DNA of 64,000 bases, from the NCBI RefSeq assembly GCF_020405205.1, contig NZ_CP084469.1, forward strand, positions 1,364,001 to 1,428,000, written 5' to 3'. Shown in pieces: positions 33,396 through 37,499 of this stretch (position 1 is the first letter of the stretch; each line of letters opens with the position of its first letter). A program made the translations under genes and the position numbers. A model generated the notes under the pieces. That model was not told the origin of the DNA, did no database searches, and saw only the letters and a list, made by a program, of their open reading frames with translations. This DNA comes from Natrinema salinisoli. GTDB taxonomy: Archaea > Halobacteriota > Halobacteria > Halobacteriales > Natrialbaceae.

Positions 33396-34727
33396 CTAGA
33401 TCAGCTCGATGACCTCGTCGAGCGCGGCCGCGTCGACGAAGACGATGACGTGATCGCCGGGCTGGACGACCGTCGAGCCGCGGGGCGTGATGTGTTCGCC
33501 GCCCCGTGAGATCGCACCGATGACGACGCCCGTCGGGAGATCGTTCGTCGCGTCGGCGATCGGTCGACCGACGAGGACGCTGTCCTCGCCGACCTCGATC
33601 TCGATGACCTCCGCGAGGTCGTGCTCGAGCATCGCGACCTTCTCGGTGTGATCAGTGCGAGTGAAGCGGACGATCTCTTCGGCGGTCTCCTCGCGGGGGT
33701 TGATCGCGACGTCGACGCCGACGGTCTCGAAGAGATCGGCGTACTCGGGGGTTTCAATGATGGCGACGGTTCGGTCGACGCCGAGGCGGTCGGCGAGCAG
33801 GGAGACGAGCAGGTTCTTCTCGTCGCTGTCGAGGGCGGCGATCACGACGTCGGCTTCGTCGACGTGTTCGCGGGCGAGGAACTCGGCGTCGGTCGCGTCG
33901 TTCTCCATGACCATCGTGTTCGGGAGCGCCTCGGCGACTTCGCGGGCGCGGTCGGGATCCCGCTCGATCAGCCGCGGACGGAAGCCGTGGTCCTCGAACT
34001 CGCGAGCGGTCTGGAACCCGATCTCGCTGGCACCGACGATGACGACCTCCTCGGCTTCCTCCGGCGTCCGTGCGACTTCGTCGGCGAACTCGTTGATCGA
34101 ATCGGGACTGCCGATCACGACGACTCGGTCGCCGCCCTGAATGACCGTGTCGCCCCTGGTCACGACCATCTCGTCGTCTCGGAAGATGGCGGCGAAGGTG
34201 AGCGAATCGTAGCAGTCGGCCTCCCGCACGGTTCGGTCCGCGATCGGACTGTCCACTGGGATATCGAACTCCGCCATGCGGATGAGACCGCCGGCGAACG
34301 TATCGACGTCGTGAGCGCTCGGCACCCCGGAGATACGGAAAATCGCCTGTGCGGTCAGCAGGTCGGTACAGACCATGAAGTCGACGCCGAAGGCACCCTG
34401 CGAGCCCTGCCACGTCTCGAGCAGCGTCCTGCGCCGCACCCGTGCGATGGTAAACGCGTCCGAGGCGGCCTTCGCTGCACCACAGACGACCGCGTTCGTC
34501 TCGTCGTTGTCCGTACAGGCGATGACGAGATCCGCCTGCTCGAGCCCCGCCTCGCGTAGCAACTCGAGATCGGTCCCGTCGCCACAGACCGTGAGCACGT
34601 CGAGAGAGTAGGTGAGCTCCTCGGCGGTGGCGGGGTCTCGATCGATCAGGGCGACATCGTGGGTGTCCTCCAGATTGGCGGCGATCGAACGGCCGACCTC
34701 GCCTGCCCCGACGATGATCACGTACAC
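33396..34727 (-). CDS. trkA: TrkA potassium uptake regulatory subunit
   Basis: A 443-residue cytoplasmic protein with two RCK repeats. Each has a Rossmann NAD-binding part (VIIVGAGEVGRSIAANLE at the N-terminus and VVIVGASEIGFQTAREFE in the second half) followed by a TrkA-C domain. It should gate TrkH in response to nucleotide. It starts divergently from the aRNase J gene. Confidence 0.95.
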   Translation of the reverse strand: MYVIIVGAGEVGRSIAANLEDTHDVALIDRDPATAEELTYSLDVLTVCGDGTDLELLREAGLEQADLVIACTDNDETNAVVCGAAKAASDAFTIARVRRRTLLETWQGSQGAFGVDFMVCTDLLTAQAIFRISGVPSAHDVDTFAGGLIRMAEFDIPVDSPIADRTVREADCYDSLTFAAIFRDDEMVVTRGDTVIQGGDRVVVIGSPDSINEFADEVARTPEEAEEVVIVGASEIGFQTAREFEDHGFRPRLIERDPDRAREVAEALPNTMVMENDATDAEFLAREHVDEADVVIAALDSDEKNLLVSLLADRLGVDRTVAIIETPEYADLFETVGVDVAINPREETAEEIVRFTRTDHTEKVAMLEHDLAEVIEIEVGEDSVLVGRPIADATNDLPTGVVIGAISRGGEHITPRGSTVVQPGDHVIVFVDAAALDEVIELI

Positions 34728-35092
34728 GACGGACCCTCCGAAATCATAGTTATTGAATCGGATTTCGGGGCGACCGGCAAATGAATTGCGGTGTCAAAAG
34801 GAGCCCGATCGGGACCGCCGAGTCGCCGTAAACCGGCGTCACGGGCGACACCGCGGCGGGCGCGGTAACCCGCTGCGTTTTTAACACCCGGGCGTGTAAA
34901 GGATACCTAGCGAAACCCGCGGGCAAGTGCGTTCGGGACTCACGCCGACGTGAGCTATCGAAGACGGAACCGCCGTCGCGCCGGGCGCATAGCGGGATGG
35001 CCGACGCGCTGCAAGACGCCGGGGCCGTACGACTAGGCGTCCGCGGACCGTTTCGATGAGAGCCAGTTCAGCGGCTTTCAGTACAAGGAACC
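34728..35092 (+). other. structured spacer and probable 5' leader of the aRNase J gene
   Basis: No protein gene is seen in these 365 bases. A TATA-like GTTTTTAAC (34877-34885) suggests transcription from about 34908, which leaves a leader of about 185 nt, long for a haloarchaeon. Perfect stems: CTCACG-CCGA-CGTGAG (34939-34954), GACGG-AACCG-CCGTC (34963-34977), GACGCC/GGCGTC (35015-35041), and palindrome GTCCGCGGAC (35039-35048). It may be a regulatory leader or a separate small RNA. Confidence 0.55.
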
Positions 35093-36445
35093 ATGGAAAT
35101 CGAAATCGCAACCATTGGCGGCTACGAAGAAGTCGGACGGCAGATGACTGCCGTCCGGGCCGGCGACGACGTCGTCATCTTCGACATGGGTCTGAACCTC
35201 TCGCAGGTCCTGATCCACGACAACGTCGAAACCGAGCGGATGCACAGTCTCGATCTGATCGACATGGGCGCTATTCCGGACGATCGGATCATGAGCGACC
35301 TCGAGGGCGACGTCAAAGCGATCGTGCCGACCCACGGCCACCTCGACCACATCGGAGCCATCTCCAAACTGGCGCACCGATACGACGCGCCGGTCGTCGC
35401 GACGCCGTTTACGATCGAACTGGTCAAACAGCAGATCGAAGGCGAACAGAAGTTCGGCGTCGAGAACGACCTCGTCAAGATGGAGGCCGGCGAAACGATG
35501 TCGATCGGCGACTCCGGTCAGGTCGACCTCGAGTTCGTCAACGTCACTCACTCGATCATCGACGCGATCAATCCCGTTCTTCACACGCCGGAGGGTGCGA
35601 TCGTCTACGGGCTCGACAAGCGGATGGACCACACGCCCGTCATCGGCGACCCGATCGACATGGAGCGCTTCCGAGAGATCGGTCGGGAGGGCGAAGGCGT
35701 CCTCTGTTACATCGAAGACTGTACCAACGCGAACAAGAAGGGCCGGACGCCCTCCGAGAAGGTCGCCCGCGAACACCTCCGGGACGTCCTCTACAGCATG
35801 GAGGACTACGACGGCGGCATCGTCGCGACGACCTTCTCGAGCCACATCGCCCGCGTCAAATCGCTCGTCGAGTTCGCCGACGATATCGGCCGCCAGCCCG
35901 TCTTGCTGGGTCGCTCGATGGAGAAGTATTCCGGCACGGCGGAACGACTCGACTTCGTCGACTTCCCCTCCGATCTGGGAATGTTCGGTCACCGCAAGTC
36001 CGTCGACCGCACGTTCAAACGGATCATGAACGAGGGCAAGGAAGACTACCTGCCGATCGTCACCGGCCATCAGGGCGAGCCCCGGGCGATGCTCACCCGA
36101 ATGGCTCGCGGCGAGACGCCCTACGAACTGGACGACGGCGACAAGGTCGTCTTCTCCGCCCGCGTGATCCCCGAGCCGACCAACGAGGGCCAGCGCTACC
36201 AGGCCGAGAAACTCCTCGGCATGCAGGGCGCGCGGGTCTACGACGACATCCACGTCTCGGGCCACCTCAACCAGGAGGGCCACTACGAGATGCTCGACGC
36301 ACTCCAACCCCAGAACATCATTCCAGCCCACCAGGACATGAAGGGCTACTCGAGCTACGTCAACCTCTGTGAGAGCGAGGGCTACAAACTCGGACGAGAT
36401 CTCCACGTGACGCGAAACGGAAATCTCATCCAACTGGTCGACTGA
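35093..36445 (+). CDS. archaeal RNase J (beta-CASP metallo-beta-lactamase ribonuclease)
   Basis: A 450-residue 5'-3' exoribonuclease of the aRNase J group. The metal site is [11 protein letters not shown] (motif 2), with [13 protein letters not shown] at the start, [13 protein letters not shown], then the beta-CASP part with [12 protein letters not shown] and [12 protein letters not shown], and the C-terminal [32 protein letters not shown] carrying the last histidine motifs. It lies one base before the GGPP synthase gene. The long structured leader hints at post-transcriptional control. Confidence 0.93.
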
Positions 36446-36446
36446 T

Positions 36447-37499
36447 ATGACGAGTCCCGAGGCACGCGAAGAGGCGGTACTCGAGGCGATCCGGCAGCGC
36501 CGCGAGCAGGTCAACGAGGCGATTCCCGAAGAGCTGCCGATCCAGCGACCCGAACGGCTCTACGAGGCGTCCCGATATCTGCTAGATGCCGGCGGCAAGC
36601 GGCTGCGACCGGCAGTCCTCCTGACGACCGCGGAGGCATTGACCGACTCGGAACCGCTCTCGGCGGAGTATCGGTCGCTCGACGCGCTCGACGACAGCGG
36701 CCCGGTCGACGTGATGGCCGCCGCCGTCAGCGTCGAGGTCATCCAGTCGTTCACCCTGATTCACGACGACATCATGGACGACGACGACCTCCGTCGCGGC
36801 GTTCCCGCCGTCCACGAGGAGTACGACCTCGAGACGGCGATTCTCGCCGGCGACACGCTCTACTCGAAGGCCTTCGAGATCATGCTCGATACGGGCGCGG
36901 AAGCGGACCGAATCGTCGACGCGCTTCGCGTGCTCGCGACGACCTGTACGAAGATCTGTGAGGGACAGTCGCTGGACGTCACCTTCGAACAGCGAACCGA
37001 CGTCTCGCCCGAGGAGTATCTCGAGATGGTCGAACAGAAGACGGCCGTCCTCTACGCCGCCTCGGCGGCTATTCCCGCAATCTTGCTGGGGGCCGACGAC
37101 GAGACGATCGACGCGCTCTACGGCTACGGCCTCGACATCGGCCGCGCCTTCCAGATTCAAGACGACGTCCTCGATCTGACGGTGCCCAGCGAGCAACTCG
37201 GCAAGCAGCGGGGCAGCGATCTCGTCGAGAACAAACAGACGCTGATTACCGTCCACGCCCGCAACGAGGGCGTCGACGTCGACAATCTGGTCGACACCGA
37301 CGACGTCGACGCGGTCACCGAGGCCGAGATCGACGACGCCGTCGCGGCACTCGAGGACTCCGGGTCGATCTCCTACGCCAACGAGACCGCCCGCGACCTG
37401 GTCGAGCAGGGGAAGAACCGCCTCGAAGTGTTGCCAGACAACGAGGCACGCGAATTGCTCTGTGAGATCGCGAACTACCTGATCGAACGCGGGTACTGA
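36447..37499 (+). CDS. idsA: geranylgeranyl diphosphate synthase-type polyprenyl synthetase
   Basis: A 350-residue trans-prenyltransferase that builds the C20 chain of archaeal lipids. Motifs: GGKRLRPAVLL, first Asp-rich motif LIHDDIMDDDDLRRG, second Asp-rich motif FQIQDDVLDL, and KQRGSDLVENKQTL. The bulky residues before the first motif (QSFTLIHDD) determine product length but I cannot fix C20 versus C15 or C25. Follows aRNase J directly. Confidence 0.93.
   Translation: MTSPEAREEAVLEAIRQRREQVNEAIPEELPIQRPERLYEASRYLLDAGGKRLRPAVLLTTAEALTDSEPLSAEYRSLDALDDSGPVDVMAAAVSVEVIQSFTLIHDDIMDDDDLRRGVPAVHEEYDLETAILAGDTLYSKAFEIMLDTGAEADRIVDALRVLATTCTKICEGQSLDVTFEQRTDVSPEEYLEMVEQKTAVLYAASAAIPAILLGADDETIDALYGYGLDIGRAFQIQDDVLDLTVPSEQLGKQRGSDLVENKQTLITVHARNEGVDVDNLVDTDDVDAVTEAEIDDAVAALEDSGSISYANETARDLVEQGKNRLEVLPDNEARELLCEIANYLIERGY

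Follow-up and report, generated by a model that had tools for sequence, protein, structure and literature searches.

Bacteria are well known to control RNA-decay enzymes by feedback through the leaders of the enzymes' own mRNAs. In rnc (RNase III) and pnp, hairpins in the leader of the RNase mRNA set its stability and are cut by RNase III, and the ompA mRNA is stabilized by a 5'-terminal stem-loop. Bacterial RNase E regulates its own expression through its UTR, and roadblocks at the 5' end that hinder RNase J1 have been described (PMC3997798). Of H. volcanii transcripts, 72% have no leader, and leaders of more than 150 nt are rare, with 97 cases (PMC4983044); aRNase J is essential in this organism, where its homodimer shows endonuclease activity, the RecJ3/4-aRNase J complex, once purified, acts mainly as a 3'-5' exonuclease, and a strain for aRNase J depletion, with the gene under the tryptophan promoter, is available (PMC10470531). 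Structured haloarchaeal RNAs also include H/ACA candidates (PMC2584109) and the 5'-UTR intron of HVO_1309, which has a BHB motif and a long-range helix (PMC7714728). Our literature search, mostly of open papers without supplements, returned no leader of an archaeal RNase J and no feedback through its own leader for any archaeal RNase.

We analyzed a 64,000-nt stretch of the Natrinema salinisoli genome (NZ_CP084469.1), here called the window; all coordinates are window positions. The aRNase J gene in the window is preceded by a folded leader that appears to be a so far undescribed element controlling the RNA-decay machinery. As in the E. coli rne 5' UTR, a long structured leader belongs to the gene of an RNA-decay ribonuclease and feedback from enzyme activity is envisaged (here proposed only), whereas the host is archaeal and both the enzyme, a beta-CASP RNase J, and the RNA structure are unrelated. 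The leaders of rnc and pnp differ from that of aRNase J, whose several arms form a closed domain on which no nuclease is known to act. The likeness to ompA and to the RNase J1 roadblocks lies in a recessed 5' end that would protect the mRNA from 5'-dependent decay, but the pairing is long-range at this locus, and a covariance model detects it nowhere but at the RNase J gene. Because transcripts of H. volcanii are mostly leaderless and, to our knowledge, this organism has no RNA exosome, a folded leader of 185 nt that is conserved before the essential aRNase J gene of haloarchaea would be a direct handle on RNA-decay capacity.

The aRNase J locus and its promoter

The aRNase J ORF matches TIGR00649 (RNase J family) with 420.9 bits against a cut-off of 400, and hits to PF22505, PF12706 and PF07521 confirm the RNase J beta-CASP and RMMBL domains. 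The leader (Table 1) lies between this gene and a divergent trkA ORF on the minus strand (33396-34727). At the other end, a geranylfarnesyl diphosphate synthase gene (36447-37499) begins 1 nt past the aRNase J stop codon, which suggests that both genes are on one mRNA; the leader may thus also affect lipid synthesis.

Table 1. Features of the aRNase J gene, its promoter and its leader, in window positions.
Feature	Position	Strand	Basis or remark
aRNase J promoter, TATA-like box (TTTTTAA)	34878-34884	+	~215 nt upstream of the ORF
Imperfect palindrome ACACCCGGGCGTGTA, after the TATA box and before the predicted start	34884-34898	+	kept in relatives
Predicted untranslated leader	34905-35092	+	start placed from TATA spacing; blastn; model R1
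PL 5' strand (CGAAAC + CCGCGGGC)	34911-34924	+	RNAalifold, duplex energy test, pair probability
Arm P2 (base 34927-34935 with 34982-34990; tip, stems 34939-34954 and 34963-34977)	34927-34990	+	covarying pairs
GCGGG, invariant, complementary to 34916-34920	34992-34996	+	possible alternative partner (P1), exclusive with PL
Hairpin P3 (conserved loop UGYAAGAY at 35010-35017)	34999-35026	+	recurs in other families
PL 3' strand (GUCCGCGG + ACC bulge + GUUUCG)	35039-35055	+	RNAalifold, duplex energy test, pair probability
Hairpin P5 (UGAGAGCC:GGCUUUCA), ending 12 nt before AUG	35057-35080	+	covariation, pair probability
aRNase J gene	35093-36445	+	450 aa, metallo-beta-lactamase/beta-CASP

Conservation among relatives stops at the TATA box: the palindrome downstream of it is kept, the DNA upstream is not. 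The sequence TTTTTAANNCCNGGNCGTGTA occurs once in the genome with up to 2 mismatches allowed, and the palindrome taken together with the TATA box likewise has 1 genome copy at ≤2 mismatches. A role of the palindrome as a regulon-wide site was rejected, as the genome holds no second copy.

The spacing of the promoter from the structure is fixed. With nine TATA-like hexamers permitted in the search, a TATA-like box was found 36-39 nt before the 5' stem (its first paired base) in 114/114 leaders of the window type (type A) and 31-33 nt before it in 25/25 leaders of a second type (type B), i.e., in all 139/139 leaders of the two types together. Such a constant distance is expected if the RNA starts at the structure, and the promoter spacing suggests that the aRNase J transcript probably does so. 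A TTTT run, which could have served as terminator of a separate small RNA, occurs in none of 43 leaders aligned.

Conservation and linkage to RNase J

With 34877-35092 as query, blastn detected the leader in 38/61 genomes, comprising all of the genus and the rest of the searched family, with fragments beyond. We also compared regions upstream of RNase J genes from Natrinema, Natronococcus, Natronorubrum, Natrialba, Halovivax, Haloarchaeobius, Halorussus, Halosimplex, Halovenus and others. The Natrialbaceae share this promoter and leader, and several other families have versions that are still recognizable. The covariance model R1 (185 positions, 39 pairs) comprises PL, P2, P3 and P5. In its own genome it matched this locus alone, at 5.4e-43 (R1 E-values are rough), and across 391 genomes of the class it matched 181, with exactly one copy each, in 47 of 84 genera. 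We retrieved 20 matches from genera other than Natrinema, and in 20/20 an RNase J ortholog follows directly downstream. The position of the leader is therefore that of a cis-regulatory leader, i.e., fixed upstream of, and co-oriented with, one gene family.

The preliminary description had left open whether this element was a long structured leader or a small RNA. Synteny, covariation, fixed promoter spacing and the missing T4 run strongly support a long structured leader with its own promoter. An independent small non-coding RNA (e.g., an H/ACA or C/D guide) that lies before aRNase J by chance would also be a discrete structured RNA with a promoter of its own, and H/ACA hairpins with long spacers have been predicted in H. 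volcanii (PMC2584109). This explanation is nevertheless very unlikely, since the element is immediately upstream of RNase J and in the same direction in every case checked, and lacks a terminator-like T4 run. Contiguous complementarity of the leader to rRNA, our test for an H/ACA or other guide, did not exceed that of shuffled sequences, and with its fixed position this would set the leader apart from the haloarchaeal H/ACA candidates; nor was a K-turn or ACA box noted in it. Rfam 15, searched at gathering and relaxed thresholds, gave no credible match to guide RNAs, riboswitches or any other family, and no family's gathering score was reached. A BHB intron like that of HVO_1309 was also rejected: the motif (3-nt bulge, 4-bp helix, 3-nt bulge) occurs in 4/43 leaders versus 2/43 shuffled ones, and is absent from the leader in the window. 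Taken as a cis-acting regulatory leader of the aRNase J mRNA, 34905-35092 is in all likelihood correctly described.

Fold of the leader

The stems first drawn from the window sequence (perfect stems at 34939-34954, 34963-34977 and 35015-35041, and a palindrome at 35039-35048) are all present, but their number is at chance level: random 216-nt stretches of the window contain 2.98±1.24 such stems, and 65% contain at least three. The folding energy of the window leader alone is ordinary compared to shuffled copies (z = -0.79), and the case from the window sequence alone is weak.

Comparison among relatives separates these stems. In an alignment of 43 leaders (A1), almost all from the Natrialbaceae, a structure with P1, P2, P3, P4 and P5 has 97% of cells paired, versus 36-46% for slid versions, and 16 double-change cells versus 2.7 in shuffled alignments; the covariation counts given here are of sequences rather than events. 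Such compensatory changes show a conserved secondary structure, as expected of a cis-regulatory mRNA leader. The stem at 34939-34954 covaries strongly, and together with the stem at 34963-34977, for which support is partial, it forms the P2 tip with 53 double-change cells versus 16.7 shuffled. The expectation of covarying pairs across haloarchaea was thus borne out for the leader as a conserved element and for its first stem. It failed for 35015-35041, which has zero double changes and one inner pair broken in 38/43 relatives, and the palindrome, read earlier as a local hairpin, serves mostly as the 3' side of a long-range helix formed with 34917-34924. Missing from the earlier drawing were this helix, which closes the domain, and two hairpins, 34999-35026 and 35057-35080.

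The compensatory changes also bear on a constraint at the level of DNA or coding (an operator, an antisense ORF or an upstream ORF) as the source of the conservation. The palindrome does adjoin the TATA box, and an antisense ORF of 76 aa is present, as is an ATG at 34998; the antisense ORF is not conserved, however, and a conserved upstream ORF was rejected because leader lengths differ by amounts that are not multiples of three and a CAA codon in the frame is TAA in many relatives, with the ATG itself lost in some. We regard this explanation as extremely improbable. The frame in question, ATG-started and 20 codons long (MADALQDAG..., 34998-35060), passes through P3; it is probably not coding, given the CAA to TAA change (MADAL-stop).

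RNAalifold closes the domain with the long-range helix PL (34917-34924 with 35039-35046) instead of P1, so that the first ~20 nt of the leader pair with nt ~133-149. Since PL is nearly invariant within the Natrialbaceae, its covariation rests on comparison across families. Among 16 diverged leaders, PL segments from one species formed better duplexes, by energy, than segments combined across species, with a permutation p of 1e-4 in a test with hand-placed landmarks and some circularity left. Pairs equivalent to PL are visible by eye in diverged leaders, such as GCUCGGG:CCCGAGC (L120), GCUCGCGG:CCGCGAGC (L137) and CGCGGGC:GCCCGCG (L043), and the predicted folds of most diverged leaders show a PL-closed junction, two arms and then a hairpin before the AUG. 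Median predicted pair probabilities over the 43 leaders are 0.97 for PL, 0.98 for P5, 0.45 for P3 and 0.00 for P1. P5 has double changes in its helix pairs, and its inner part is paired in 98% of cells. P3 has a low predicted stability in the window sequence and in its Natrialbaceae relatives; in other families the same loop and stem reappear, with the outer stem changed (GAGUC:GACUC in L045, CCGUC:GACGG in L053). In the predicted folds the AUG is neither consistently free nor blocked (mean unpaired probability 0.47).

P1 (34916-34920 with 34992-34996) was rejected as the main closing helix: it is invariant, with a predicted probability of ~0, and it yields no covariation evidence because GCGGG is the same in all 43 leaders. 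P1 is a possible alternative state of the PL 5' strand. A cis-regulatory leader might sense something other than aRNase J, e.g., another protein (a ribosomal protein, SmAP1 or RecJ3/4), a small molecule or an ion, with PL versus P1 as the switch; 34916-34924 has two mutually exclusive invariant partners, as such a switch would need, although the near-zero probability and invariance of P1 argue against it, and we consider this reading unlikely. A similarly low likelihood applies to the invariant GGGYAA, UGYAAGAY and AUAGCGGG as its putative binding site. These strictly conserved segments are unpaired in the model; on the other side, the UGYAAGAY loop is absent from several relatives, the element goes with a single gene per genome, unlike most riboswitches, and Rfam matches are absent.

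Possible feedback by aRNase J

Autoregulation is attractive because aRNase J is essential and shows endonuclease activity as a homodimer, and RNase E offers a precedent of control through an enzyme's own UTR; self-control would also fit an element that is tied to the aRNase J gene only. By this precedent, feedback by aRNase J itself is a serious but tentative possibility. The aRNase J 5' UTR would be transcribed from the TATA box at 34878 and would fold into a closed domain in which PL encloses the arms P2 and P3, with hairpin P5 directly before the AUG. Recessed in PL, the 5' end would be resistant to 5'-end-dependent decay. With aRNase J in excess, the leader would be cut or invaded (by the endonuclease or a 5'-3' exonuclease) and the mRNA lost, while with aRNase J scarce the closed leader would persist and the mRNA would be translated. 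The whole chain, in which aRNase J activity feeds back on the closed leader and the leader sets the amount of enzyme through mRNA stability or translation, has a somewhat less than even chance of being right. A recessed 5' end would not counter the 3'-5' exonuclease of RecJ3/4-aRNase J, which speaks against this mechanism, as do the near-invariance of PL in the Natrialbaceae, the weakness of P3 and the inconsistent accessibility of the AUG. With the covariance model and the predicted helices in hand, the idea of control can be tested experimentally.

Other leader types and the RNase J paralog

Type-B leaders, found in many other haloarchaea (e.g., Halosimplex, Halovenus, Natronomonas and family f4), have the form TAACCGAG...CUCGG, then ~8-12 nt, then AUG. 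Their folds are more stable relative to shuffled sequences (mean z -4.0) than those of type-A leaders (-2.4) and random pieces of the window (-0.6), and the terminal CCGAG:CUCGG pairing has a predicted probability near 1 in most. The exact type-B pattern matched 93/391 genomes. In genomes of families f4 and f10 for which both positions are known, the match lies ~180-250 nt upstream of RNase J, with the exception of one f4 genome (G119) and of an extra match in a few genomes; outside these two families the matches look fortuitous.

The same genome encodes, outside the window, a second RNase J paralog with 85% identity (C1:3512245-3513588, minus strand). Its leader is of a third type, conserved in other genomes, with a TATA-like spacing of 31-32 nt in 14/14, and is closed terminally by CCGA:UCGG just before the ATG (CCAA:UUGG in L188); the duplex test of matched versus cross pairs was weak here (p = 0.03). 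Pairing of the 5' terminus is common to all three leader types, and the predicted folds suggest that the type-A, type-B and paralog leaders share a closed-5'-end design despite unrelated-looking sequences.

This common feature would also suit a passive element without feedback, in which the closed 5' domain shields the mRNA from 5'-end-dependent decay or brings the 5' end near the AUG for leaderless-like translation, and in type B and the paralog the partner equivalent to PL ends ~8-12 nt before the AUG. In window-type leaders, by contrast, PL ends ~37 nt before the AUG, and specific segments and arms are strongly conserved beyond the 5'-end pairing. A purely passive role therefore appears quite unlikely. 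Feedback by aRNase J could also be extended to all haloarchaeal RNase J genes, paralogs included: their 5'-terminal nucleotides would pair near the start codon, and aRNase J would read the closed RNA as a gauge of its activity. We regard this extension as doubtful; if true, it would mean that an archaeal RNA-decay enzyme is under feedback at the RNA level.

In Halorussus (L120, L126, L132 and L137), leaders are extended by repeated GCGUGGCUUUGCCAC hairpins between the junction and the ATG. The RNase J paralog (upstream region L169) lies ~560 nt past the end of the third 23S rRNA gene.
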